In this document: in pieces, positions 10,729 to 64,000 of the stretch
Position numbering within the stretch: position 1 is the stretch's first letter
How the letters are laid out: each line of letters opens with the position of its first letter
Assembly (NCBI RefSeq): GCF_019649055.1
Contig: NW_026570236.1
Span: forward strand, 1,302,001 to 1,366,000
Direction of reading: 5' to 3'
Length of the DNA stretch: 64,000 nt
Source of the DNA: Paramacrobiotus metropolitanus
Taxonomy: Eukaryota; Tardigrada; Eutardigrada; Parachela; Macrobiotidae
Program-made: the position numbers and the translations under genes
The notes under the pieces: model-generated
Databases searched by the model: none
What the model saw: the letters and a program-made list of their open reading frames with translations, nothing else
Told to the model about the DNA's origin: nothing

Positions 10729-15071
<4,343 letters not shown>

Positions 15072-17058: not shown

Positions 17059-22779
<5,721 letters not shown>

Positions 22780-35016: not shown

Positions 35017-36963
35017 CCTTTTGGATGGTAGTCGTAGGCTGCAACGCCACTGCCACGTTTCCATATTTTCTATGGGCGTTATACTGGGATCCAAAATGGG
35101 CCTCATAGAACTGAATTCTTGCTGCGCTTTTGGAGCTAACGGGGGGATCTTGTCCGGGATACAACATTCCAATAACATTTGCTCAACAAATCACGTGATT
35201 CCAGCACTTTATTTTGAAATCTCACAAGTTTTGTTTGGAGTATAATTATATATATAATTACTTGTTTCCGTTGGAAATCGCTTCTGAATCTTGAGCGTTT
35301 TTTTAATTTATTGACTACGGCGGCAAATAATTACATTAAAGTTTTGTACATTGTAGTGTTGTAATTCGTACGTACGTGTGCAGACACATTTATCATATCT
35401 GTATTATACGATGGCGATGGCCGCCGCGCTCGTAAATTTTATTGAAATCGCTGACAGTTAAATGAAAATAGCACGAAAAAGTAATTACAGTACATCACAT
35501 TATAGCAATGTAGCATCCAACAACCATAATTATAGAAAGTAAGAAGGTTATAGATAAAACCCTGCGAATTTCTTCTCCAGTTGACCGTTAGGTGATATTA
35601 TTCCCAGTACAGAGGCCGTGTTCTTTTCTCTGATTTCAAAATTTCTAGACGCTGTGCGATTAAGCGGTTAGCCTTCGGTTTGAAAGGTCAAGGGTTGCAA
35701 AACTTGGGATACGTACACAGATAGTCATCCTGTTTGCCCGTGTGTTGCAGTCAGCACTGCAGCTGCACTGCTGCAGTATACGATAAGGCCATCGTGCACG
35801 GACGCGATCGCGTTAACATTCTTCCTCTTTCCCATGTCTCTGCATGACGGCCTCGGCAAGGAGTTTGCTATCGGTTTATAATGTGCTACAGTAGGTGGCA
35901 ATATTGTCCGCGTAAATTCCTTAAGAATTTTCCCAAAAGCCGCATTTGGTGTTCAGCCAACTTGGCTAGACTTGAGACTAGTGTCATAATTATTGTGTCA
36001 TAATTTATTATTTTACAGCTGCTCATATCGGTCCATTCATATTCTGTACTATTACTGGACCGCGGTTCTGGAGCGATATATGCATGATTTGGCATAAGTA
36101 AGTGGATTTAAAAACGGTTTGTTTTTATTGCAAGTATTGTTCAAGTATTGTGTACAACGTGTACCATGCATGCACCAGAATCCGGAACTAATCACTCACG
36201 GATCGAACCGCTAGAACGCTGTTTACCAGTGTGTGTACCTATTTTTATTGTGAATTAAGGATAGCCCAAAAAACTTAAGAAGACAATTTAAGTAATAAGT
36301 TCTAGACTTAAATGACCTTGTCGGCTTGTACAATGCAGCCCGACATATTAATCTATAATTGTTATAATTAAAAAAGACGTAATATGTACCACGGACTTAC
36401 CGATACAAAGAAAGGGATTATCGTGCAAAGCACACGTCCTAAAATTATAGTATTTAAATTTTAATAAATCAGGAATTGCATAATAAATTTGTTCATAAAT
36501 TTGTTCATGTTTATCTGTTCTGCAGGGGATCGCAAAATTAGCTCTGCGAAGCGTAAACCGATCATGTCATTGCACGGAACCATGGCAAATCATACACCAC
36601 GTGTTGTGTTATGCCTTGACGGAACTGTATACGTACTTCATTCAGTACAGCATGTAACAGCTTTGTATACAATATTACAAGAAACAGCCTCGGCTTCGCC
36701 TCCGCTTTTCTTGTGGTCTCCAGTCTACGGCCGGTTTATTCAAATGATTTCGATCAGCTATTTAGTTAACATCTTATTCCTTCAACGAAACAAAATGAAT
36801 CCGAAAATACGCTAAAACGCAGATAGAATAAAAAGTGAATTTATGGCTTTTGTGCACTCAGACGCATTCAGTTTCACTCAGAAGGGAATTTTTGTTAACT
36901 TCTCCCTCCCGACTTTGATCGAGCCTACCAGGTACTACATTTCCACTAAAGGATGCTTACAAT
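35017..36963. other. Intergenic, no gene recognised
   Basis: Short open frames exist (35886-36095 minus, 36489-36815 plus) without recognisable domains or consistent splice partners. A 37-bp dispersed repeat lies at 36688-36724. Confidence 0.45.
36688..36724. repeat. 37-bp dispersed repeat, copy 2
   Basis: Partner of 7986-8022, described there. Confidence 0.5.
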
Positions 36964-37660
36964 AGATGCTGGTGGTAGTTCGGTCACTCGTTTACCTAGC
37001 GGGCTGTGTACTCTGGATAGTAGTGGTAGTTCGGTCACTCGTTTACCTAGCGGGCTGTGTACTCTGGATAGTAGTGGTAGTTCGGTCACTCGTTTACCTA
37101 GCGGTCTGTGTACTCTGGATAGTAGTGGTAGTTCGGTCACTCGTTTACCTAGCGGGCTGTGTACTCTGGATAGTAGTGGTAGTTCGGTCACTCGTTTACC
37201 TAGCGGTCTCTGTGCTCTGGATAGTAGTGGTAGTTCGGTCACTTGTTTACCTAGCGGGCTGTGTACTCTGGATAGTAGTGGTAGTTCGGTCACTCGTTTA
37301 CCTAGCGGTCTGTGTGCTATGGATAGTAGTGGTAGTTCGGTCACTCGTTTACCTAGCGGTCTGTGTGCTATGGATAGTAGTGGTAGTTCGGTCACTCGTT
37401 TACCTAGCGGGCTGTGTGCTCTGGACAGCAGCGGTAGTTCGGTCACTCGTTTACCTAGCGGTCTGTGTACTCTGGATAGTAGTGGTAGTTCGGTCACTCG
37501 TTTACCTAGCGGGCTGCGTGCTCTGAATAGTAGTGGTAGTTCGGTCACTCGTTCACCTAGCGGGCTGTGTGCTCTGGACAGCAGCGGTAATTCGGTCACT
37601 CGGTGAGCTAGCGGGCTGTGTGCTCTGGATAGTAGCGGTAGTTTGGTCACAGCTTGGCTC
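36964..37660. repeat. 51-bp minisatellite, about 13.5 copies
   Basis: A 51-base unit is repeated head to tail with few substitutions. The unit length is a multiple of three, so two plus-strand frames and one minus-strand frame stay open across the array. In the frame starting at 36953 the unit encodes DSSGSSVTRLPSGLCTL (17 residues). Another frame encodes a hydrophobic repeat, and the minus strand encodes a PLLSRAHSPLGKRVTEL-type repeat. Differences between units are partly at third positions of the 36953 frame (GGG/GGT, CTG/CTC, GAT-AGT-AGT versus GAC-AGC-AGC). They also include several replacements (CTG to ATG, CGT to TGT, TTA to TCA). No splice partner giving a start, signal peptide or conserved domain was found, so the coding status is open. 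Confidence 0.9.
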
Positions 37661-38445
37661 TGTGAAACTGAAACCGTCTGGCCAGGTTTTGGAATATGGG
37701 CATTCAGATTATGGAAATGGTTTCTGCTGATTCTATACGGGAAAGCTGGGTTCGTGAATCTCTTTTTATTTTTTGTGGTAATAAAGATCTAGAATGTACA
37801 GTAGATACCGTACTATTATTCCGTATTATACGAAATAATTTACGGACTGTAGATGCTGATTATCCTTTATCAATCACTGTCCTTAGTTTTGCTCGGACTG
37901 CAATGAAAGGTTAGCCCGTTTGAACGATTACTATGGTCAGTTTCTTCTACAGCTGCCTTCAAATATAAACGAAGCCATCCATTTAAACGATTTAAACTGT
38001 AAACGAAGCCATCCACTTGCAGTATCGTTTGTGCTACTGCTAATTGGCTTTTCTAGTTTTGTAGGATTAAAAGTTCAAACCTTTTTGATTTGTTGATCTA
38101 AAAAGGGTACCAGTTTAAATTTACTGATTTTTTGCTCCATGCAACAGGACTTTGAAATTGTTTCAAGGTCACCTTGAGCTTTCTTCTCTACCGGCACCGG
38201 CGTCTGTGCACGGAAGCCGGAGCAGATATTACCAAAACAAAATGCATGTGACACAGTTTCCAGACATGCTGAATCGAATGGCGTTAGCAGTTTTTCGATT
38301 AATTTTTTGGTTTGTTATGACCAGATCGTACGGGGTTTTCCGTTGTAATATAGATCTTTACCTTGATACCTTGATAGTACCTTTATTGATGAGTCTTAAG
38401 AATTATGGCTGTGGCATTTGTATTTAGAAATTGTAAAATTAAGCA
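37661..38445. other. Intergenic downstream of the minisatellite
   Basis: It holds the dispersed repeat copy at 38134-38377. It also holds a TTTATT at 38382-38387, which is AATAAA for the minus-strand gene ending at 38446. No gene was recognised. Confidence 0.5.
38134..38377. repeat. Dispersed repeat, copy 2 (first copy at 1401-1650)
   Basis: See 1401-1650 for the shared landmarks. The two copies lie in the same orientation. Confidence 0.6.
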
Positions 38446-48117: not shown

Positions 48118-49173
48118 CTATGTCCTAAAACAAAACCTTCGAAACAACGCAGCAATGTCAGATCTTAAGTCCGGTACAATAACTGCAAAGAAAACAGGAT
48201 CTAGTGCCGCTTGTAAAACGTATAATCCTTGGCAGACTTCAAGAACGGTGGTATACGATGACAGATCGACAAAGCACCATACCGTGTAGAACGTATCCAA
48301 CGGTGTCCATGTCACCACCACGCTCAACGTCAACGCGGTAAAAACAGCAAACGCTTTGGTGCCTTTGCGGGGCGCAGCCGGACGTTTGATTTTCGTTGAA
48401 CCATTCGAACTGGACTTTGATAACTTGGTATGATTCGGCCCGGTATTTCCACCGGTTTCTTCCAGTTCCACTTTTAGTCCTACCTTGCGCTGGCGTTTTA
48501 TCATATATAGTAAATACGGATACGTAATAACAATCAAAACGTTGGGTAGCGCGTAAATCATCATCTGCATTGTTATGTTCCACACCGGCATTTCCGCATT
48601 GTTGAGGATGCAGCCGAAAGTTTCCACAGGAAGCCGGTATAGTAAAACATCCAAAACAACACCAGGCAGTGCGACAATGTGAACATACAACCATGTAAAA
48701 ATCACCAAAACCCATGCGCAGCGCACCGAATGGTGTTGACGATAGGAATGCGGAAAGGTCACCGCCCAGATACGGTTAATTGTAATGAGGATATGAGAGT
48801 ACATCACTAAACCGGCAGCGACGGTGATTCCGTACTGGTATACGGTGCATAAATCATCGCCCAGACACCAGTATGGCGAAATAAAATTGAGGATATCCAG
48901 CGGGTTATCGAGAATGGCAAAGCAGATATTCGCTACGAGAACGCTGGTTAAATAAACGTTAAAAGGAACCGTCAGCCGTTTGCTGCTGATAAACGCTGCC
49001 AGTATTAAACTGTTGAAGATAACCGCCCAGGGGAGTATTATGACTTCCAGCGCCGGAATAACACGCCACTGGAACTGCCACGCTGTGGAATTGTCAGTAA
49101 GATTAGAAAGTTCAGTTTGAGTACGATCGCCGTAAGTTGAGTTGTCACTGGAATTCACTAACTGCATTTGCAA
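48118..49173 (-). CDS. Rhodopsin-class (class A) GPCR, intronless, 351 aa
   Basis: Single-exon frame of 351 aa with seven hydrophobic helices and an N-terminus carrying four N-glycosylation sequons. Helix 1 begins with LEVIILPWAVIFNSLILAAF. The conserved disulfide pair is present: Cys at the top of TM3 (DDLCTVYQYG) and Cys in extracellular loop 2 (FGCILNN). Core motifs are altered. The TM2 Asp is Asn (LVANICF). DRY is replaced by NRI (ITINRIWAVTFP). CWxP is TWTP. NPxxY is DPVFF. Intracellular loop 3 is Ser/Lys-rich (KLSKSSSNGSTKIKR). This is a seven-pass plasma-membrane receptor of unknown ligand, perhaps peptide. The style reminds me of the large lineage-specific receptor expansions of tardigrades, but that is an impression only. 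The start ATG is the first in frame before the glycosylated N-terminus. Confidence 0.85.
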   Translation of the reverse strand: MQMQLVNSSDNSTYGDRTQTELSNLTDNSTAWQFQWRVIPALEVIILPWAVIFNSLILAAFISSKRLTVPFNVYLTSVLVANICFAILDNPLDILNFISPYWCLGDDLCTVYQYGITVAAGLVMYSHILITINRIWAVTFPHSYRQHHSVRCAWVLVIFTWLYVHIVALPGVVLDVLLYRLPVETFGCILNNAEMPVWNITMQMMIYALPNVLIVITYPYLLYMIKRQRKVGLKVELEETGGNTGPNHTKLSKSSSNGSTKIKRPAAPRKGTKAFAVFTALTLSVVVTWTPLDTFYTVWCFVDLSSYTTVLEVCQGLYVLQAALDPVFFAVIVPDLRSDIAALFRRFCFRT

Positions 49174-50647
49174 AAACGGTTAATCACATTATTGTGAAAT
49201 ATGCAGATCGTCCGCGTCGTGTCTAAGGGTTTTCCTTATAGAGGACGCTTCGTGAAAGTGAAACTCCGACATATAGCTGCATTACTGTACTACGTAGATA
49301 GGAGTTATAGCCAGCCAAACTTTTTCCCCATTTCCGATCTACCCTGTATCCTGTGAAGTGTGAACCTGTCTTTGCAACTAGAGCAAACAGGTTAAGGGTA
49401 TCTGATAACAAAAGTAAACAGATTTTCTTCCTGGGTTAATTAGACCCTGCCTTAAAAGAGCGTTTTTTCATATTTGTTTTACGGCAACATGATCCCGTGC
49501 AGCCACCTGCAGTAGCAAGCCCACACTTATTGCAACGTGACGCAACCTGCAAAGTGACGTTTGATGCCATGGCCAGGCTTTGCTGGTGAGACAACTTAGT
49601 CGGTAAATGACTAAATGCGATATGGCAATGTGCGATTATGGTAGTGAATTCAAATTCAACCGGAAACCTATCTACGCAAAAGTCCGCTTGACATCAGAGT
49701 TCAGAATTCATATCTACGAGTTTTTGTTAACCTTCGTTTTTTAAAATACTCTCCGCTTAATGGCCTCAGACATTAAGCGAATAAGCACAATTGTAGTTAA
49801 CATCGTAAGAATGAGGAGTAAAGAAAATTACAGTAATTATCGCTTTTGCTGAATAAAATCAATCAGGGCGACATTTAACAATGCAGCTGTAGTTACTAGT
49901 GTCTGTATTACCATAAACATACAGACATGGCGACATTTGGTAAGGGTAAGAAACTAAGCAAAATTAACGATTTTATTTTTATCATAGGTTGGTATAATTA
50001 CAGCATATTATTTGATTATTTGAATGACGAAAGCCGTTATATCTTTACGCTCTGTGTTACTTGCTCCGTTGTTCGTAATTTTAGACGGGAAAAACATATA
50101 ATAATTATAATTATATGTATGGTATATACGAGTACATATGTTGACGATACATATAATTCATGTATGTATTCATTCGCGGGTAGTCTTTGTGTGTTATACG
50201 TCAAGGCGGTCAAGCTATATCCTAATGCGACTGTAATTAGTTTTTTCGTATTTTTGCAGTATTCAGTTGGATTATACCTCTTCGGTAAACGATGCTTTTC
50301 TAAGAATTTTTGGAAATTTTAATAGCGCATATCACATAAAGTTTTCATTAAGGTCGGCATAAACCAGTTAATTTGCGTTTTCGCTCCGGCCCGGTCTGCA
50401 ACAGTATAATATATTATGGCATAAACCTTGGTGTTCTATACCCTAGCTAGTGCTTATATTGCCAACCCTGGGTACTTTTCTTCCAATACCGTTGTATTCC
50501 TTTATAGTACTTCCCTCAGGGTATTCCCTTGTACACGATTTATCGATTACTATCCCAACATCGTATAAAAGCATGACAGATCTAAGCGGCCTGACTGGCA
50601 ACATTGTTGTTTCAAATTTCGTTATTTTCTTAAACCACTGGTCGGCC
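49174..50647. other. Intergenic GPCR / cyclase-like gene A
   Basis: It contains the promoters of both divergent genes. A 131-codon open frame at 49927-50322 shows no recognisable domain and is AT-rich in composition. It could hide a short 5' exon (ATGGCGACATTTG followed by GTAAGG), but nothing confirms it. Confidence 0.45.
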
Positions 50648-53600
50648 ATGTACGGCATCCTGCTAGAAAGTATTGTGACCTTTATCAAAAAGGCATACAG
50701 CGAAGAGAAATGGGAGCTGATCCGCAAAAGTGCCCGGGTAGATCAGGAAAACTTTAGCGCGCACCAAGTGTACGCGGAAACGGTCATTCCACGTATTGTC
50801 GATGCGTGCCACAACCACCTTGGGATACCAAAAGAAGACATCCTGATTTCCTTTGGGAAGACGTACGTGGACTTTATCTCGCACTATGGCTACGATAAGA
50901 TTCTGAAAGTTGTGGGACGGAACTTCCGGGATTTCCTCAACGGACTGGACAACATCCACGAATACCTGCGCTTCTCCTATCCCAAACTGAAACCACCCAG
51001 CTTTTTCTGCGAACAGGAAAGTCGCACGGGTTTGGTACTGCATTATCGCAGTCGGCGGCGGTATGATGGCTATACCCATTATGTCATGGGAATTGTCAAG
51101 TCCGTGGGGAGGACTTTCTACAAACAAGATATTTCAGTCAGCGTTTTAAAACAGGAAACTACCGGCAACATGGTGCATGTCACCTATCAGCTCAGCTTTG
51201 ATAATTCGGGTAAGTTTGTTGTCATATTCCTGTACGGAATTCTGAAAATACGCCGGCATAGCGATACAAACAGACAGACGAATTTAATGGGCTTCGTGTC
51301 ACTGTATTTCGCGGATCACTCGACTGCCTAGGGTAGACAGTCTGCCTCTGCAGATTCGTTACTGCAGTGCAAAGGAGGTTCAACGTTCATTTCTTAGCAT
51401 TGACCAATGCCAACTACATTATTAAATTCAAAACTCTTGATCTCGTGGGTTGCACTGTAAAAAACCTGCGAACAAAAAGATGAATTTAAACCGAAATAAA
51501 GGAGTATTTCTTTCAAGTCAGATTAACAGTACATTTTGAAGGTTATCCAGAATAACGAAATTTTTTTCCTGTCTCCACTAAACGAAAGGCGTCTTCTGCG
51601 GTTTTTTCTGCCAAAAATCTCATTTTTGGGTAAAAGGAATTATCTTTTAAGGTCTGCTAAAATAGACTATAATTATTACACAGATATCGTTTAAGTGTGT
51701 AACCGTCTGATGTTTCTATCTATTTACGGGAAAATCCTGGCGCCCGTGATAATGTGCTGCCTATCCCGGGCGTTCCCAAACACACGTTCAGTGAAGCGTA
51801 TACGATAGGATAAACCACTCGTTATTTATCAGCCCACGACAATGTGCGTGTTATTGGCGCTAACATTCAGCACATAATAGCCCAAATTGCTTGACAGCCA
51901 GCTTATTAAGTTTATTGATTTAGCCAGGTACGTATACACTTGTGAATATTTATTCATGTCGGCTGTAGCGGCAACGCACTCAGGATGCTGCGTTTCAAGA
52001 CTAGGTCGCATAAAAAGGAACGGGAAGAGATATGATGGCAAATCAAACCATTGCGATTACGCAAACGCCTTCGTTACGCTCACGATGATCTGTTTTCGGA
52101 CACGATGTACACTGCCCAATCAAACCGGCCAGATGAAACTTTACGGGGATTTCACTAACAAAGCAAAAACCCTGATTAGGAATAACCCAAACATTATGCC
52201 CGAGTGTAGAAATGGCCTTTTTGCAGTTTGCGTCGTTTAATTAATAAAAGACGTATATACTTCACGTGCACGTCATTCAGAGCTTGTTAATGCTATCCAG
52301 CCATGTATACCGTATTCGCACTCGCTCGTGCATGATGGGGAGAACCTTACCGACGCAATGCAAAACCGCGCCGGAAATTAAAAAATGGTCACTTTGGCCT
52401 TGGCATTTTATTGCATGAGTGTGCGAAAATTCCACTCGAAAATACGTGTTACGTAACGGTATTACCCTTTTTCTTGTAATATTAGCCGAGACAACTATGT
52501 AAATAGTGCCGCAATTAAATTACATTAAACTTGGTGGTGCACAATGCGGATTAACCTTATTTATCGCAAGCAAGCGGAGGGCAATTACTCCAGTCTATAT
52601 AGCTACCAACGAACTAGGTTGGTCGATACAGTAAATACAAAACGTAATTTTCGAATCCAAAAATCAAGAGACCCATCCGAATTCCTTGATGAAAAGGCGT
52701 CGAACCAAAGAAATGCATAAAGTGTGGCAATGTTTCGTAACCGTATTGGCGTTTCGGTCACTGTAAAATTAGATAACTTTATGATAGTCCTTTCAAATTG
52801 TAATAGTCACATTTCATGCTCACTTAATAAATTGCGCCTAATCATTTTCCATCCTAGTTTACAAGGTTTTCTTTTGTTTCTGTAGCTTATCAAGAAGAGG
52901 AAAAGCGAGAAAACACCCAGAATCTTCCACTGCGTATGGATGTGTTTTATGACCTTTTCCCCTTTCACATCCTGTTCGACCGTGACATGATTATCCGCAG
53001 CATCGGTAAAAGCCTGCGGGCCACCATTGATGAGATCACCGGGTACGATGTTACTCAAGTGTTCTCATTAAAGAAGCCCCTGGTTGATTTTTCCTGGGAT
53101 GCGGTAAGTGTGGGATCGGGCCAGATTGTTTGTTTACCTGTTACTTAAATAAAGTAGATAAAAGATTTTCAGGGTCATTAATCAGGTATCCTCGATCACT
53201 GTACGCAAAAGTGCCGCTAGGCATTTGTTGATTGTACCTGTACGGCTGTACGCAAATTCAAAGAATTTGATGAGTTAGGGATATTTTCAAACACCAGCGA
53301 TGCTACTATACACCGAGTTTCTGTGGGGCTGTGAGAGTGACTTTGTTTACAAGCTCCATGTGCTGTCTTTGTGCAATAGATCATTGGGCGTACCAACACA
53401 ATGTTCGAATTGGCAACGATTGATCCCATCCGGGGACGGGAAGAGACCGGGGATGAGGACGAAGCATACACGTGGACAGATACCAACGGTAAATAGTGCA
53501 GTTAGTTACTCGTACGTAATAAATCTCTTATTTAATACCCCTTAGTTTTAATCCCGTCAGGCTAATAGGAATTTTTAATTCAACGATAATTACCGTTTGC

Positions 53601-56600
53601 TAAGATTCAACCAGAATATGCTTAAAAGTTTGAGTGATTGTTTATTGCCGTAATTTTTTAAAATTATTTGCCGCCTTTAAGTTATGTGTAATTTTAACAT
53701 AAGAGATAAGAGATTGATCGCGTTATTTATGTATATAATAAATAGGAAAAAAGCGCACATCCGTGGTATCCATCTCACAAGACGATGATTCCGGTACATT
53801 TCTCCGTCTGAAAGGTCAAATGTTGTTTGTCAGAGAATGGGAGTCCATGCTGTTTCTGGGCACGGCTGTGTAAGTTAATTTCTTCCGCTGCCGTAATGAA
53901 TGGCGCAATCCTGGCCGCTCGATTAAACTTGAAAAACATGACCCGGCCATCCATTCTCACAGTTGAATGGCTGTTATTACGGCCTTTACACGCATGCAAC
54001 GCTTATAACTGTCACATTATGCAGATTGCAGGATTTGGATGCACTGTGTCAGACGGGATTGTACCTGAACGATTTGAGTATGCACGATAATAGCCGGGAT
54101 TTAGTGCTGGCTGGAGCACAGCAAGGCATCGAAATGAAATTGATTTTAAAACAGGTAAGTGAATGGAGTCGTCAAAAGTAAATGGTTCGTAAGAAAACGG
54201 ATAGAAAAAACCTGGCACATTTGGCGGGAAATTAATCAAATCTGATGTCGGATGTCCGTGTGGTGCAGTGAACTTTGCAGTTGCTGCCCTGTGACCTTGA
54301 TAAACGCTTATTACAAGTCTGATATTCATGAATCGCTGCACAAATGAATTAAGTATTTCAGCATGTGAGCGTCGTTTTTCGCCTTAAAAATGAAAGGTAC
54401 AAATACAGACAGTTTTCAGACACAATTCAAGTACAGTACAGATAATGCAGTACAGTACAGTCCCTACAGATACAATAGATATACCATAGCCGTTGCTCTA
54501 GGAGTGCGAGAGTCATTCCTCTCGCGCTCCTAGAGCAACGGCAATGGACATACAGATATTATTAGCAATACACAAACAGATAAGTAAGTACAATACACTG
54601 TAGAGATACATGTCCCTGGTTATTTACTGTACATCCACAACTCAAAGTAGAAGGATCTACCCAAAGTCCATGTATATGCCCAGTATAGTTGGATACACCG
54701 TTTATCTGCAAAAGCAAAACAGAACATGGACAAGTTTACAATTTAAAAACCGAACAAACTCATAAACGATAAAACTTCGAATGGCTAAGTTCTAAAGTTT
54801 TGCAAAGCATATTATCACATGTGCCAGTTAAAAGCGCGCCGGCTACAACAAAATAGCATCCCGAAAATCTTGAAATGCCTGGCACGCTCACTCATTCATG
54901 CATTCATTCATATACCAGGAGCAGACAACCCGTTTAACAGGACTTCAATGTCAGGTCGGTAAAAATGCAGCAAAAAATTACAGAAGAGATTATTTAAACA
55001 GATCAACAGTTTTCAGAGTGAACTTAAACAGCTCACACCGCTAGCATTGAGTATCTGTGAATTAACTTTTTGAATCCGCTCAAAAACGTTCTGTAACCGC
55101 AAGGCCAGCGTGCTTTCTCCGGTTTTCTGTTTCACTCTGGCTTGGATTCGTTTCGGCTTCCGGAGATTGTACTGCGGTGATGCAAATCGTGACGGATAAA
55201 ATAATTTTCGTTTTGTATAATTGTATTTAGGAGCAATCACGTACAAAGCAGCTGGACGATACGCTCCGTCAATTGGAATCGGAAAGGCACCGCAGCAAGG
55301 AGCTGCTGTATAAAATGCTGCCCAAAGCACTTGCCAATGTACTGATTTCCCGTGCGGAACAGAACGGTCTGGAGCTCGTACCGAACGATACGATGGACTT
55401 GGCCCAACAAGCCACTCTCTTTGTCTGTTCTATCCAGACACTCGATGGCCAGCCCGGTCCCCTGGAGACGGCGCAGTCCGACAATCTCCAACAACTAATA
55501 CAGCTGCAACGCCAGATGGAGATGTTTTCCGAACGATTTGGTTATTACAAGGTACCCTATTTATGATTTCATGGTGCAAGAGAATGCCAGTACATGTACA
55601 TTTGATTTTCCTACTGTTTCCTTTCTATTACAAGCTGGACTTTATTTTATCGTCAATAGCGTGATAACAATATCAAGATCTAATTACGTTTAAGCGAAAC
55701 AGCATTCTCTATTACAAGTAATGTTACCTTCTTTAACTTGTTTTTTTGTCCATTATACGTAAACTGGTAGAATATTCGCAGTTCACAATATGGTACGTTG
55801 TACAGATACCATTTAAAACGCAAAAAGAAAGAAAAACTTTCTCTGACAATCCGTTAATTTATCTGTAGATGCAAAAGGTGGCGCATGTTGTGTTAAAAGT
55901 GGCGGCGTAATAAGCAGTGAAATATAGCCAGTTTAATTTTTTTACCATACATAATATACTAACAGTTTCTAGCGCAAAAATTGTTTTGGTAGATTGAAAC
56001 TACACGACATCATTTCATGGCAGCCAGTGGCATTCCAACTGGTACCGAAGTCACCGAAGAGAACGCCTGCTTTTTGGCCAAAAAGGTCTTCCGCTTTGCC
56101 AGTGGATTGTCGCGGCTGAGAGTCTGCATGGGTAAACAAGCTAAAGAATTCTTCAATCCCAAAACAATGTGTGCTCTCTATAGTTTAAATTTGGTTGATC
56201 ATATAGCGATTTGCACGGGTCCAACGGTCTTCGCAGTGATTGGTTCCCGGTTTCCGCGGATGTGCCTTTTTGGACAAACTGTGGCTACTGCCAATGCCAT
56301 GGTCGAACTCATGAAAGTAAGATATACAATCTATGTAGTTCTATTTTACAAATCAAGTTGCGAAAGCTTCCTGGAACCCACAAAAGAATATATGTAATAT
56401 TATTAATGTGTCTGGTCGTACATTTTTATATTTTATTCAGCCTACAGAAAACCAGCCACAAATTCTGGTATCGGAAACGACTAAATTGCGCCTGCCCAAA
56501 GATACCGGACAAAAATTTGTACATGGTCCACCGATTGCTGGAAAGGTTGCTGGAAAAGTAAGAGCTTCGATTACAGTATTAGCAATTAAGTATCTAAATA

Positions 56601-56656
56601 AGTGGTCTTTGCAGGAGAAAGACATCAAGACCTACGTTTTACAGCAGCAGCAGTAA
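50648..56656 (+). CDS. Atypical soluble guanylyl cyclase-like gas sensor, copy A (cyclase site degenerate)
   Basis: The model has ten exons: 50648-51209, 52886-53103, 53380-53488, 53746-53869, 54025-54154, 55231-55551, 55993-56131, 56207-56316, 56441-56557 and 56615-56656. All phases agree and give 623 aa. The family is the insect Gyc-88E/89D type: MYGILLES at the N-terminus, the HNOB heme domain (1-187), the HNOBA/PAS-like domain (about 200-370, with [20 protein letters not shown]), a signalling coiled coil (382-408), and a cyclase fold (409-600). Heme features are kept: His104 in NIHEYL and Y133-x-S135-x-R137. In the cyclase fold the residues needed for catalysis are replaced: Asp of LFSDI by Cys447 (LFVCSI), Asp of IGDAYM by His494 (TRHHFM), and Asn and Arg of TVNTASR by Ala561 and Ala565 (TVATANA). 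It is therefore predicted to sense a diatomic gas but not to make cGMP. An in-frame upstream ATG (50573) exists; MYG was chosen from family consensus. Confidence 0.88.
51210..52885 (+). other. Intron 1 of cyclase-like gene A
   Basis: Intron of 1676 bp between GTAAGT and TGTAG. No repeat or nested gene was recognised. The same intron in copy B is only 65 bp. Confidence 0.6.
54489..54542. repeat. Hairpin with 24-bp arms in intron 5 of cyclase-like gene A
   Basis: GCCGTTGCTCTAGGAGTGCG (start of the left arm, 54489-54512) pairs with 54519-54542 with a single mismatch across a 6-base loop (TCATTC). The arm is far more GC-rich than the intron around it. It lies on the transcribed strand of the gene. 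Confidence 0.75.
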
Positions 56657-57718
56657 TCTAAACGTCACAGTAAATAGTTTCTCGAATCACTAATCTTGCC
56701 ATCTAATACCGACCTTCACATCCGAATCGCACTATAAACTGCATGTCATTGAGTATTATGCATTATTCCTAAGAAGTCATTCATTACGTGTTCCGTACCT
56801 TTAATTTAAGTGTCGTATTCAGAGAAAGATGGCTTTGCTTGCTCGTTCATTTTCAGATATGTTTATTTTATTTTTAGTACAAAGACTGTTTTATTTTTGC
56901 CTGGCGAAACAGACATTTGCATGATTTAACGGGGCTTATTCGGAAGTGAGAAAGAAATAAAGAATTTCACATTAAAAGTCAAAGAAAAGCGAATTCTATA
57001 ATGTTAAAGTTAGTAAAATCGGTTGCGCTTGGTTAAAACTGAAACCTGGCAGACAAACATTTGTGCAGATATTTTAAGCGCAAACTCAACAAATTCAATA
57101 CAGTATACATACAACAGTGCAGAGAATGTTGTACTGGTACGAACGTTTAGATGAGTTTAGCACGCGACCAAGCACGCAAAGCATTGTATACTGATTTTAC
57201 GGTGAATTTCTAAATATTGTAAAGTCATTTTATACAAAAAAAATCAGCTTCCGAAGTGGAATAGTACATTTTGATAGCGTTACATTGTTTATTGGGAAAA
57301 TTGTGCGTATCAACCCCGTTACCCAGTCAATTATGGATCGCGGCCTTCGCGGGTGGGTATCGCGCTATCGGCATTGTGAAACGGCAGCGGAGTTCCGGGA
57401 ATGCTGAGACATGCTGGCCGTGGCGCAGCTGATTTCATATATGCGCATCGTCGATGTCTCCTGCACCGGAATAAAATATGCATTGTTGCCCTCCTGTTCA
57501 TATAGTTAATCAATACTGCAATGTTTCACACCTATCGCCCACTCACGGCCTGCTCATTGAGTAGTTTATCAACTTTGACACCGCATAATGGTTATCCATA
57601 CTCCATTGTCGATGAGAACTACAAAAGCCAGACACCGCAGCGGTTGACAAGTGTTCCCACATTTTAGTCTCTTTCCGCGCGCCGAGTTGTCTGCTCCCCT
57701 TTAAACCATCTAACCACC
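56657..57718. other. Interval between the two cyclase-like genes
   Basis: AATAAA at 56956-56961 is the likely poly(A) signal of copy A. The rest should contain the promoter and 5' UTR of copy B. No gene was recognised. Confidence 0.6.
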
Positions 57719-60700
57719 ATGTACGGTATTCTCTTAGAAAGCATTGTGACCTTTATAAAGAAAGTCTATAGTGAAGAGAAATGGGAGCTGATCCGCAAGA
57801 GCGCTCGTGTCGACCAGGAGAACTTCAGCGCTCACCAAGTGTACGCGGAAACGATCATCCCGCGCATTGTCGACGCTTGCAACAAACATCTGGGTTTGCC
57901 GAAGGAGGACATCCTGATCTCCTTTGGGAAGACGTACGTGGACTTTATCTCGCACTATGGCTACGATAAGATTCTGAAAGTGGTGGGACGCAACTTCCGG
58001 GATTTCCTCAATGGACTGGACAACATCCATGAGTACCTGCGCTTCTCCTATCCCAAACTGAAACCACCCAGCTTTTTCTGTGAGCAGGAAAGTCGGCAGG
58101 GTCTGGTACTGCATTATCGCAGTCGGCGCCGTTATGATGGTTTCACTTACTACGTCATGGGAATTGTCAAATCCGTCGGGAGGACTTTCTACAAACAGGA
58201 TATATCTGTCAGCATTATAAAGCAGGAAACTACCGGCAACATGGTACATGTCACCTATCAGCTTAGCTTTGACAATTCGGGTAAGGTCGATACCATCTTC
58301 GGTAATGTTGTGCTATAAAAACATCGACAGTTTTTTTTCCCGTAGCGTATTTCGCGGAAGAGGCGAAAACGGAGAACACCCAGAACCTTCCATTGCGAAT
58401 GGATGTGTTTTACGATCTTTTCCCGTTCCATATTTTGTTTGATCGGGAGATGATTATTCGCAGCATTGGCAAGAGTCTGCGAGCGACGGTTGACGAGATC
58501 TGTGGTTACGATGTTACCCAAGTGTTTTCACTCAAGAAACCATTGGTAGATTTCTCTTGGGATGCGGTAAGTCTGGAAGCAATGACACGCTAATAACGCG
58601 CTCTTCGCTAATAACGATTACTGTAACAAGTACTAAAAACGTCAGCGATGTCGGTATTTTTTCATAAAATGTATTTTTAGCAACTTTGCCATAAACTGTA
58701 GACCTACAGAGGAGCTCCCAGTTGCAGAATTTGCACATACATGTAATACAAAGCATACATATGCAGTTTATCACACATAATTATACGAGGGCAATGCATA
58801 TGGTCATAAATTATTAATGTTAGTACTTAATGCATACGTACAATATAATAATCAAGGCGTACGCACAAAACAGGTTATTGGCCGAACCAACACGATGTTC
58901 GAACTGGCGACCATTGATCCCATTCGTGGTCGGGAAGAGACCGGCGAAGAGGACGAATCTTATACATGGACGGATACAAACGGTATATATTCAAGCAAGC
59001 GCCCAAAAATGGTTTTTTTAACGAACTGAGTGAAAAGTAACATGTACAGTACATGTACTAAATATAATTTACATAAATTCAACCACTCTACAGTAGTGCA
59101 GATTAAATTTTAAAGACTGAAGAAACAGTTCAGTCCAACTAGTGTCGTGCGGTAATGATACAACCGAATTATCTCTCGTACTAACAAATGCCCATCAATT
59201 TCCTAATTCCATATACATACTGTAGGCAAGAAACGTACGTCAGTCGTGTCCATCTCGCAAGACGACGATTCTGGGACGTTCTTACGCCTCAAAGGTCAAA
59301 TGTTGTATGTCCGGGAATGGGAATCAATATTATTTTTGGGAACGGCAGTGTAAGTTTTTCAGTTATAGCATGCTATGCAGTATTGCCTTCATTCATACAT
59401 ACTTTTTAAAAGGCATCTGCAAAAAAATAGCTTATCTATGTCGCTTTTACCACGTAGGCTGCAAGATCTGGATGCGCTGAGCCAAACTGGATTGTATCTA
59501 AACGATCTAAGTATGCATGACAACAGTCGCGACTTAGTGCTTGCGGGCGCCCAACAGGGTGTGGAAATGAAACTGATTCTAAAGCAGGTAAAGTACACGG
59601 CGTCATGGCCCATGCCTAATTACTTACCTATAGATACACATAGGTACACAACCACGAATTGCTCTTACCGTTTTTTTTTTATTGTTTTATGTTATGCGAT
59701 CCTGTAGAGTAACAAATGGGGAGCCTAAATGAATACTTTAAATATGTAATTTAAAGTTAAAAAAAGAAGTGGAAAACGAGAACATTTATATCAGTAGTAA
59801 AAAATGATTTGGCCATTTTGGTGGATTGAGCGAGATTTGTACGACTAAAACTGCATGTAATCCGGTCGTCGGATTTGAAAAACACACCATTTACCTCGAC
59901 TATTCAGCCATTTACGTATACTGCAGTTATGAATTATTATTTTGGGAGTTAAGCATATTTCCATAAATGCCAATTAGCTATCACAATTGTCACCGCATAC
60001 GAGTGGCTAAGACATACCAGGTGTTTATTGATACTTTATTGGTCGATAGCTTTGGATATATCGAGTATCGACATTGTGTTTAATCCCAAGGTAAAACCCG
60101 TTAGTGCGATCAATTCCGAAATGTCATCGATCGATCGTCCATGACCTTGACATTCAGCGAGAAAACGCGCAGTTCGAAGTAGCGTACGTTGTAGTTGCAA
60201 CGTTAGCTGCACAGAGCACAGAACATGGGAAAGCAGCGGTCAATATAAAAATCAAGTGTATACCGGCAGTTATGCAATTTTAATCAAGTATTTACCGGGT
60301 GGCTGGCGTATTTAGGAACAATCGCGCACGAAACAGCTGGATGATACACTGCGTCAGCTGGAATCCGAGCGGCATCGCAGCAAAGAACTGATGTACAAAA
60401 TGCTACCTAAACCCCTGGCGAACGCTCTAATGGCCCGTAGCGAAAACAAAGATGTCGAACTGACTCCGAATGATGTTGTTGACTTGGCCCAACAGGCCAC
60501 CCTGTTCGTTTGCGCCGTCCAATTGGTGGACCTTGGTCAACAGGCTGCTGACTCACCACAATCGGACAATCTGCAGCAGCTGATCCAACTGCAGCGCCAG
60601 ATGGAAATGTTCGCCGAACGATTCGGCTACTACAAGGTTGTCACGCGCTTTCCCGCCAAATTAAAAATTAATCGTCGACGTTAAATAAAATTAAAACTGC

Positions 60701-61501
60701 AGAACATAATTTATGTGTTTGTATATGATGCTGTGCTTGTAATTATTGCAACTGTTAATGCAGTATACATTTCTGTTAAAACTATTGATAGATCGAGACT
60801 TCTCGCAATCATTTCATGGCAGCCAGTGGAATCCCAACCGGCACGGAAGTGACCGAAGAGAACGCCTGCTTCTTAGCCAAGAAAGTTTACCGCTTTGCTG
60901 CCGGATTGTCCCGGCTTCGCGTCAGCATGGGTGCGATAATATTAACATATTCCGATAGATATGGCATTCGAGCGAAATATTAATTATTCAATGCATATTT
61001 CATAAAATATCAATAACCAGGTTGCCACATGAATTTGTTGTTTTTTAGCGGTATGCACCGGACCGACTGTGTACGCCGTTATTGGGTCGCGGTTTCCGCG
61101 GCTTTGCTTGTTCGGTCAAACTGTCGCCACCGCAACGCAAATGATCGAGCTATGCAAGGTAATTAAGTTAAAGACTTTATAAGAGGATAACATGACAAAA
61201 CAGTATCAGAAGAAGCGCTTCGGCCATCCGACAAGAACATTTTACGTTTCGCCACAAACTGCCAAATGTACTTTATTTTAACAAATATTTTTCTGCGTAG
61301 CCAACAGAAAATCAACCTCAAATTCTGGTATCGGAATCAACACGGGCTAAATTACCCAAAGACAGCGGGCATAAGTTTACAGCAGGGCCTCCGGTGTCCG
61401 GAAAGGTACAAGTTTCCGTTTGCAACATTTGAATTATTGTTTAGCTAAATCAAATCGGATCTTAGGATAAGGACATCAAAACCTACGTCTTGCAACAATA
61501 A
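57719..61501 (+). CDS. Atypical soluble guanylyl cyclase-like gas sensor, copy B (cyclase site degenerate)
   Basis: Tandem paralog of 50648-56656 with the same ten-exon structure: 57719-58280, 58346-58566, 58874-58982, 59226-59349, 59458-59587, 60316-60636, 60792-60930, 61049-61158, 61301-61405 and 61466-61501, giving 618 aa. The ATG has a strong context (CCACCATGT). HNOB keeps His104 and the Y133-x-S135-x-R137 heme motif. HNOBA keeps [17 protein letters not shown] and [20 protein letters not shown]. In the cyclase fold the metal Asp positions are Cys448 (LFVCAV) and Asn495 (SRNHFM), and the Asn/Arg pair is Ala562 and Gln566 (TVATATQ). So the active site is lost here too, with partly different replacements from copy A. 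The fold itself looks preserved (KIET...[23 protein letters not shown]). Introns are shorter than in copy A. It probably acts as a cytosolic dimeric sensor or as a partner of another cyclase subunit; this is inference. Confidence 0.88.
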
Positions 61502-64000
61502 TCAACGAGCTCTTAATTATGGATTTGGATATTTAAATATCATTGTTTAATGTTAGTGTATTGTGTGTTGTGAATTACCATTGTGCAATCCGCGAGTGGA
61601 TTACTACGGCAACACCTACAGTTTGTACTGTAGTGAAATTAACGGTAGTGGGTATAACCAGCCCACTTTTATGCCCTACTTCTGCGTTTGAATGTTGATA
61701 TTTATTGCGGTGCGTGATTTTAAATATAGATATTATGCGAGTACCTATGCAAATATCGACTACTGATGCGTCACTTTGTTCTTTCGTTAATTACACATAC
61801 AGTGTGCAATGCCATACAGTTGTTCTTCCGGCACTACTGCGGCAAAGGGATAGAATCTGGCCTGGAATAATTTAATGCCATCCACAAATTTTGTTTTTGT
61901 ATCGTATACAGGTTAAGAAAGCATACTGCCTTCTGTAACAAATCACTATATATATAATATAATATAAAATAATACTGTATGAAGTTGAAAATGCAAAGTT
62001 CAATGTTTTCTGCAGTGCCACGACGGTTTTCTATCCTCAAACAAATAGAGTGTACGAGGTACTTTATTTTGTAGCATTTGGTCTAAATGGTGTCTCGTAA
62101 GCTGGAGGATACAGTAACTAAACCAATAACAAAGACAGTTCTCAAGGGTAGTCCACAGAAATATTGTAAGTAGAAAAGTGTTCAGCACAATCCTAATTGA
62201 AATATAACTAAACAATATCGCACTTGGCATTTGCTTATTAAATAAATAGATGCAAAGTAAATTTATTCGATATGAATTTAAAATTGGGAAAATAAAGCAT
62301 CAGAGATAAAATTAAAAGTGTCCCTTTTGACATGTACTGTAGATTACGGTTTCCAAAGGGTATACTAAAATATATCTCTGACATTTTAAACTCGAATATT
62401 TCCAAAGGAAAAAATTACTACTGTACTCTGTAAAACTAAAAAAATTACTAATATAAAAATTTTACTACTGTAAAAATTGATGTAATAGTTATACAAACTT
62501 ACAATAGGAAATTTCTTGAAGCAAGTTTTAAAGCACTCATATAATGGATCATCGGTAAAGGTCACTACGACGCCGGTTAATACAGGATACAGAACATTGC
62601 CAAATTTGCAACGGACGAAAACGGAGAAAGAATAGTCTATTCGTATGTTTGTCATTAACGTTCAAGAGCCGAATGCAATTTGCCACAGTTGGTGAAATTG
62701 ATTGAAAAATACTCAGCAGTATTAATTTCGAAGTAGCATAGCTATTAGCTGATGACTGATGTTGTATATCGATAGCAGGAATGCTAAGTGATAAGTAAGT
62801 ACATTGCCCGGCTGTTGTATTATACCGTATCTGTAGGTGTGCGTCTTATGCAATGTTGCCAACTGATTTATATACACTTCGTGGCTGTGCAAAGAAATGT
62901 AATGTATGTCGCGAAATTTTGCGATACCGATACGCAAATCACAAATGTGTTTAATTTGACATGACAGTGGTGATCTTGAACTTTGAATTTGTGCGACCAT
63001 GCTTCTTTTCGCGCCGATAAAGTGCCAATTTTCTTATCCAATCGGCGCCAACAAATCACCGCAAGATGTGATTTTTTACCGCACTAAACTGGCTGACAGA
63101 GCGTGTACCACGTTTTAAATTAGCGGTGGAGGTCATTTCACTTTCCCCGTGCATGGCATGTGCCGTTGTTATTGTTGCTGAGAGACCATTGACACTTGCA
63201 GTTTCCTCATCGAACAACCATTGTCCATACGCTTATTATTTAAAACTTGGTAAAAGTTTTCTGCACGATGAGGCTATCAGGCTTGTATTAAATAAGAATT
63301 CTGTAGAAATTAATCGTCTTAATCCTCTCCAAGTGCCGCTGACAAACTTAGAACACAAATGTGCCGAAAACTGAAAACTGTGAGATCTTCGACTTTTTCT
63401 ATAAGGAAAGATATTGGTAAACAAGTTCAAATCAATATTATTACTGGTTGGCAGACGTTCAATACAAGTTAGATACACAATTAGTTTGAAAATAAAAGCC
63501 ATTGTAGCAAGATGTATATAAATACAAATAAAAGCGGTAATAAAATGGTGCTGATTCGGCACTTAAGCTTTACTCCTGTAATAAAACCATAACGATCTTT
63601 GTTATGATTACAAAAAGTGCCCATAGGGATAGCCGCTTTACAGCTTTATAGCCCAAATAAAATTAGGTGACTTATTGTCATGACAGAACTGGTATCGCGT
63701 TCTGATAGCTCAACTGTCGGATCGACGATTGATGGAGGAACTTCCCGTCACTAAGCTAGCATATGTGTATCAGCGTAACATTTTCCGCCGAAATAACTAA
63801 AGTATTTTCTGTACTATCTAACTCTGGGTATTAATTACAATAAGCAATCGTAATATATACAGCACAATTCCAAAAAAACCAACAACTTGTTTACTGGATT
63901 TTGAAACGAGCGTTGGTAAAATTTTTGATGCAGTCTGTCGATGCACAGATATTGTCTAAATTTTGACACGATACAGAGTTTGTTTTGCAGAACTCTTTGA
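61502..64000. other. Gene-free right end
   Basis: After the 3' UTR of copy B no coding region with recognisable domains, no RNA gene and no strong repeat was seen. It is AT-rich (for example 62270-62520). Exons of a gene lying beyond the window cannot be excluded. Confidence 0.5.

Follow-up and report, generated by a model that had tools for sequence, protein, structure and literature searches.

In the tardigrade Paramacrobiotus metropolitanus, two tandem genes, here called A and B, appear from their sequences to encode soluble guanylyl cyclases (sGCs) that have kept the gas sensor and lost most of the active site. The genes lie in a 64-kb stretch of DNA (64,000 nucleotides of contig NW_026570236.1, positions 1,302,001 to 1,366,000, our contig C16; hereafter 'the window', to which all positions given below refer) in an assembly of 169.8 Mb and 533 contigs. 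To judge by descent and domain layout, A and B belong to the sGC family, and they lack much of what defines an active cyclase; after an old duplication both copies have remained under constraint. The explanation towards which we lean, with somewhat less than even confidence, is that A and B serve as non-catalytic, O2-gated regulatory dimer partners of a catalytic atypical subunit.

Gene structure, heme sensor and active site

Gene A (50648-56656, 10 exons, 623 amino acids) and gene B (57719-61501, 10 exons, 618 amino acids) follow one another on the forward strand, and the start codon of A (ATG, from 50648) and the end of B's stop codon (61501) agree exactly with the limits (50648-61501) that an earlier note on this DNA had set for the pair. 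All introns of both genes are of the GT-AG type, intron phases are equal at all nine junctions, and there are no internal stop codons. When each protein was aligned to the other gene with a spliced aligner, the exon boundaries were recovered, the only differences being a 12-base shift in the donor of exon 9 and the final codons, in keeping with the intact frames and splice sites reported earlier. The Pfam profiles HNOB, HNOBA and Guanylate_cyc match in this order, with 168.3, 212.6 and 52.2 bits in A and 166.4, 212.3 and 49.0 bits in B, over the curated cut-offs of 25.5, 23.4 and 21.9 bits, and so bear out the full HNOB-HNOBA-coiled coil-cyclase architecture that the earlier note had described. 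The Guanylate_cyc match begins only at residue 467 and spans profile positions 31 or 32 to 182, leaving the stretch of the first metal-binding Asp (D1) outside it.

The key residues of the heme sensor are kept: alignments place the heme ligand His104, the motif Y133-x-S-x-R and the distal Tyr145 in both proteins, the first two of which had been seen before. They are encoded by exon 1 (A, 50648..51209, with the His104 codon at 50957-50959 and the Tyr145 codon at 51080-51082; B, 57719..58280, with the corresponding codons at 58028-58030 and 58151-58153), which by gene model and Pfam holds the H-NOX heme domain (amino acids 1-187 in A). The distal residue, Tyr in A and B, is Ile in human beta1, and in the excerpt of PMC1435932 available to us a distal Tyr is tied to the O2-sensitive sGC clade and Ile to the beta subunits that bind nitric oxide (NO). 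By these residues the heme pocket of A and B is of the O2 type, and O2 binding by the H-NOX domain through His104 and Tyr145 is predicted. An AlphaFold model of exon 1 of A, made from a single sequence (predicted local distance difference test score, pLDDT, 72; predicted template modelling score, pTM, 0.65), matches H-NOX structures; its top structural match is the sGC beta1 chain 9oxn_B at a query TM-score of 0.83, and the sGC beta1 chains among the matches listed score 0.65-0.84.

Residue roles in class III cyclases were taken from PMC2576301, an excerpt of which describes dimers in which one subunit supplies the metals and the other supplies an Asn and an Arg. In an alignment of A, B, 12 other sGC models of this genome and human alpha1 and beta1, the second metal Asp (D2) is replaced by His494 in A (codon 56008-56010) and by Asn495 in B, the Arg that contacts the triphosphate by Cys533 and Ser534, the ribose Asn by Ala561 and Ala562, and the transition-state Arg by Ala565 and Gln566. 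The first two positions lie in exon 7 (A, 55993..56131; B, 60792..60930) and the other two in exon 8 (A, 56207..56316; B, 61049..61158), as placed by gene model and alignment. The same two exons retain the guanine-contacting residues, Glu490 in A and Glu491 in B (exon 7) and Cys554 in A and Cys555 in B (exon 8), with which nucleotide binding by A and B may be compatible. The earlier note had held that all four key catalytic positions are replaced in both proteins and that neither complete catalytic half could be supplied; the alignment upholds the loss of D2, Asn and Arg, adds that of the triphosphate Arg, which the note had not listed, and supports the second statement, whereas the replacement of D1 by Cys in both copies is less firm, as the registers disagree (see below). 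A and B carry the same residue at one of the four firmly lost positions and different residues at the other three, and from the motif YKVET on they share 109 of 131 residues; because of this difference the former active-site positions look free to vary and the surrounding frame of the second cyclase part less so, although the numbers are small. A new metal site built from Cys and His in A was considered and is disfavoured, as the residue of B that corresponds to the His is Asn and the copies also differ at the triphosphate position (Cys in A, Ser in B).

We also searched for a concealed canonical exon. The cyclase parts of L003 and L004, two atypical sGC genes of this genome, and of its alpha-type sGC gene L012 gave tblastn matches in the window at E < 0.001 only at the known exons, the best match elsewhere having an E value of 0.19. 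A six-frame scan of 50000-63000 contained no LFSD-type and no VNTASR-type motif; it returned one VNDAF string (50285, upstream of A), five FSD strings (52093, 54413, 55839 and 56850 on the forward strand, 53837 on the reverse) and one GDA string (55176), all without canonical context. Exons that restore an LFSD or GDAY motif, which the earlier note had named as evidence against its interpretation, were thus not found in the introns or flanks by either search.

The assignment of D1, in exon 6 (A, 55231..55551; B, 60316..60636; gene model and alignments), depends on the method. Alignment with hhalign to four canonical sequences puts Cys447 of A (55426-55428) and Cys448 of B (60511-60513) at this position; HMMER, using a profile built from nine sGCs and 60 control exons, in which the pieces of L003 and human alpha1 extend further upstream than the others, puts Ser448 and Ala449 there; MAFFT puts Gln; and hhalign with nine sequences puts Asp434 and Asp435, in the context VPND and TPND. 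Relative to L003, the Asp register calls for deleting 7 residues and inserting 16 and lacks the hydrophobic strand before the Asp, whereas the Cys and Ser/Ala registers set ATLFVC on the VTVLFSD strand with no more than 6-7 additional residues on one side and 2-3 on the other. Because the Asp register needs such large gaps and has no hydrophobic strand before it, D1 was probably lost in both proteins, in a stretch too diverged for safe alignment. A sliding 11-residue D1 profile, in which the true motif of L003 scores +32.8, gave no positive score for any window of A or B: in A the window ATLFVCSIQTL, with Ser at D1, ranks first (-5.2), in B the Asp window (-8.7) leads the Ala window (-11.4), and with the D column masked the ATLFVC window is best in both. 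AlphaFold, run on exon 6 of A together with the B sequence, predicts four helices without any strand (pLDDT 67, pTM 0.46), although a fragment modelled without its partner strands and from two sequences makes for weak evidence. Together, the failed D1 register and this model suggest that the cyclase domain has been remodelled in its first part.

Selection and history of the pair

Identity between A and B is 88.3% across 617 aligned codons. Since Nei-Gojobori estimates of the synonymous rate (dS) were infinite in several domains, we used a pairwise codon-likelihood fit, in which dS values above about 2 are imprecise. The ratio of the nonsynonymous rate (dN) to dS, omega, was 0.045 in HNOB (dS 0.60), 0.013 in HNOBA (dS 2.78), 0.058 in the linker (dS 2.09) and 0.050 in the cyclase part (dN 0.142, dS 2.81), for which the upper 95% bound is 0.094 and the likelihood ratio against omega = 1 is 164. 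Amino-acid change in the cyclase part is about four to five times that in the sensor parts (dN 0.142 versus 0.027-0.036), and neutral decay of the cyclase part after duplication is nevertheless excluded. The dN/dS comparison that the earlier note had proposed therefore finds the cyclase part far from neutral, and its description of duplicated, conserved genes that are not plain pseudogenes agrees with the open frames and with omega of 0.013-0.058 across the domains. With dS of 2-3 outside exon 1, the copies are old. We rejected a haplotype or assembly duplicate, as synonymous sites are near saturation over most of the gene beyond exon 1 and blastn at E 0.001 aligns no intron, out of nine, between the copies. 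Exon 1 itself stands apart, its dS of 0.60 being far under the values elsewhere in the gene; around the heme region (50849-51009 of A against 57920-58080 of B) the copies share identical runs of 62 and 47 bases, whereas the six other exons whose lengths match between the copies have no run longer than 22 bases. The likely cause of this similarity is gene conversion across the heme region, with unusual codon constraint as an alternative explanation.

A tree of the same 16 sequences as in the active-site alignment (the partial locus L011 being left out) joins A and B as sisters (support 100/100), with L004 as the nearest relative (82/80) and A, B, L003 and L004 together at 98/97. Under a midpoint root A and B group apart from the alpha1 and beta1 types (100/99), in a tree of sequences from this genome and human. 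Branch lengths were estimated separately for the two halves of the proteins on a manually set topology in which L001 stands beside human beta1, L002 and L005-L009 being left out. For the sensor half, the stem of A and B comes to 0.48 and the own branch of L004 to 0.41; for the cyclase half, the stem reaches 3.01 (2.55 from YKVET on) and the L004 branch 0.55. Because the stem is so much longer in the cyclase half than in the sensor half, these branch lengths date the loss of the active site, with a burst of cyclase change, to before the duplication, and constraint to the time after it. Measured against nine other sGCs (seven from this genome and two human), A and B leave unchanged all 21 invariant columns of the sensor and 19 of the 26 invariant columns of the cyclase domain, namely 14/17 from YKVET on and 5/9 before it, where the register is doubtful. 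From YKVET on, A is identical to L003 at 31/106 residues and to L004 at 31/102, compared with 57/108 between L003 and L004. In the coiled coil, A aligns without gaps to L003 and to L004, with 16 of 38 residues identical in each case, compared with 26/38 between L003 and L004 and 35/38 between A and B.

Cyclase repertoire and genomic surroundings

The HNOB profile gave 22 exon matches, which amount to 15 loci in the genome. Besides A and B there are the alpha-type L012 and the beta-type L001, L002, L013 and L014, and all four of the latter retain Asn and Arg. The atypical L003 and L004 (contig C20) have both metal Asp residues, the triphosphate Arg, the ribose Asn and an O2-type pocket like that of A and B; the transition-state Arg is present in L004 and is Lys in L003, as in alpha1. 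A separate clade of six comprises L005-L009 and the partial L011, L009 and L010 being one gene (contigs C59, C1 and C81 for L005-L010), and has a long stem of its own (1.41). The five models of L005-L009, which begin at residue 'AGIP..', replace D1 with Arg and D2 with Glu, retain Asn and Arg, and carry the heme His and the distal Tyr; from these residues the clade looks like beta-type halves that would need a metal donor. Two of its members seem damaged, as the L006 model lacks the coiled-coil exon and L011 consists of the first H-NOX part only. Of the 14 soluble models examined, A and B alone combine loss of metal residues with loss of Asn/Arg residues.

The guanylyl cyclase repertoire of this animal is very large, with 200 exon-level matches to the cyclase profile genome-wide. 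As a control we took the first 60 exons that qualified (match start at or before profile position 4 and reach of at least 63) among the matches listed (150 of the 200), a selection that leans to well-conserved domains and counts both L048 and L049. D1 is not Asp in 9/60 of these exons, and D2 is not Asp in 5/60 with one more unreadable; 14/60 lack one metal Asp and none (0/60) lacks both, so that single metal Asp losses are fairly common in the genome. The Asn/Arg pattern was matched in 0/60, the matches ending before these residues. The cyclase exons of L048 (contig C65) and L049 (contig C474) have identical translations on different contigs and may be a recent duplicate or an unmerged haplotype.

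The remaining exons of the pair follow the same order in both genes. HNOBA starts in exon 2 (A, 52886..53103, by gene model, Pfam and spliced aligner; B, 58346..58566), runs through exons 3 (A, 53380..53488; B, 58874..58982) and 4 (A, 53746..53869; B, 59226..59349) and ends, with the signalling helix, in exon 5 (A, 54025..54154; B, 59458..59587), all as given by gene model and spliced aligner. Exon 6 holds the coiled coil before the first pseudo-cyclase part, and the pseudo-cyclase domain continues beyond exons 7 and 8 into exon 9 (A, 56441..56557; B, 61301..61405), for which the spliced aligner indicates a possible alternative donor 12 bases upstream in A and 12 bases downstream in B. Exon 10 (A, 56615..56656; B, 61466..61501; gene model) encodes the C-terminus and the stop. 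Upstream of A and on the opposite strand, the window has a reading frame of 353 codons of the rhodopsin type of G protein-coupled receptor (48121-49179, minus strand). Matches to the autophagy protein ATG16 fall in two separate minus-strand frames (12362-12871 and 19087-19560), with a WD40 frame at 11232-11561, and the ATG16-matching frames are possibly a second tandem gene pair. At 36949-37788 several frames are open at once, and SSVTRLPSGLCTLDSSG-like units repeat in one of them.

Possible roles of A and B

A and B share the H-NOX, HNOBA, coiled-coil and cyclase layout, the heme His and the distal Tyr with the atypical subunits Gyc-88E, Gyc-89Da/Db and GCY-31/GCY-33, and the domain layout also with the human beta1/alpha1 heterodimer (6jt0) and with Manduca 6pas; the best match of B in the Protein Data Bank is human beta1 (E 1.5e-72). 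Fly atypical subunits are described as heterodimer partners (excerpt of PMC9075734), with Drosophila 88E active alone and enhanced by 89Da and 89Db (excerpt of PMC11344882) and with the subunits mostly inactive singly and enhanced together (excerpt of PMC11568450). According to these excerpts, the fly subunits make cyclic guanosine monophosphate (cGMP) at least in combination, unlike what would be expected of A and B, which lack most catalytic residues; the comparison is by description only. Each normal subunit of beta1/alpha1 also lacks one half-site, alpha1 keeping the metal Asp residues and beta1 the Asn and Arg, whereas A and B retain neither pair whole. Within the genome, A and B differ from L003 and L004, which keep the metal Asp residues, the triphosphate Arg and Asn, in having lost D2, the triphosphate Arg and Asn. 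They resemble L005-L009 in being soluble, with heme His and distal Tyr, and in the loss of metal Asp, yet differ from that separate clade, a possible beta-like half, in having no Asn/Arg. Pseudoenzymes in general are an already known kind, and the kinase homology domain of receptor guanylyl cyclases, a pseudokinase, is likewise a catalytically dead domain that is retained for regulation (excerpt of PMC1435932); in A and B, by contrast, the cyclase itself appears to be dead. Among the titles and abstract openings searched, with partial coverage, no sGC without both catalytic halves was described.

An O2-gated regulatory partner is the role we favour because fly atypical subunits are described as heterodimers and because the sites of A and B are incomplete. 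On this account an atypical O2-type sGC would have turned into a pseudoenzyme and then been duplicated in tandem to give A and B, which would bind O2 at the H-NOX domain and would still dimerise through their HNOBA, coiled-coil and pseudo-cyclase domains. The best candidates for a catalytic partner would be L003 and L004, and their position as the closest relatives in the tree, their metal Asp residues and ribose Asn, and the gapless alignment of their coiled coils with that of A all point in this direction. In a mixed dimer of A or B with either of them, one composite site would lack Asn/Arg and the other a working metal site; because neither would be complete, the dimer would be silent or weak, and the partner's activity would be shut off or much reduced, depending on O2. 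Several points weigh against this proposal: one of the D1 registers retains an Asp; the lack of any positive D1 score marks a strongly changed first cyclase part, which may mean a changed dimer face as well; L003 and L004 resemble each other more closely in the coiled coil than A resembles either of them, so that this segment does not decide the matter and A-A, B-B and A-B dimers would fit equally well; and the retained guanine Glu and Cys could reflect nucleotide binding or merely structure.

Those same dimers, A-A, B-B or A-B, might instead have an output unrelated to cyclic nucleotide synthesis, for instance as an O2-gated scaffold acting through the remodelled pseudo-cyclase. A coiled coil shared between A and B and diverged from L003 and L004 would suit such a role, as would the heavy remodelling of the first part of the cyclase domain and the long cyclase stem followed by constraint, a pattern of changed function; however, the literature searched offers no precedent, a scaffold would not obviously need the cyclase frame and the guanine pair kept in the second part, and we consider this rather unlikely. 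It is possible, if doubtful, that A and B make up a gas-gated protein switch derived from a dead, partly remodelled cyclase, such that no dimer containing either of them would synthesize cGMP. Weak or unusual catalysis, with A or B as the purine-binding half and L003, L004 or L012 as the metal donor, seems improbable to us. Loss of Asn/Arg in class III cyclases may lower activity rather than abolish it, the guanine Glu and Cys persist in both copies, and metal-donor subunits exist in the genome; against this, both copies have lost the triphosphate Arg together with Asn (to Ala) and Arg (to Ala or Gln), and the beta-type genes all keep Asn and Arg. That A and B are functionless, decaying remnants, or that the replacements are artefacts of the gene models, we regard as very improbable: single metal Asp losses among the control exons and the partial copy of another sGC class (L011) would be in line with decay, but the frames are open, splice sites are shared despite dS of 2-3 outside exon 1, every domain is constrained, and no concealed canonical exon was found in the introns or flanks.

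Soluble guanylyl cyclase-type sensors are the textbook converters of a gas signal into cGMP, and tardigrades are known to survive drying and lack of oxygen. A long-constrained pair without most of the active site would make non-catalytic roles of sGCs, as dimer partner, decoy or scaffold, directly testable. Moreover, because a second soluble clade (L005-L009) also lacks metal Asp and 14 of the 60 sampled exons lack one such residue, a division of labour among half-dead cyclase subunits may be widespread in this genome.

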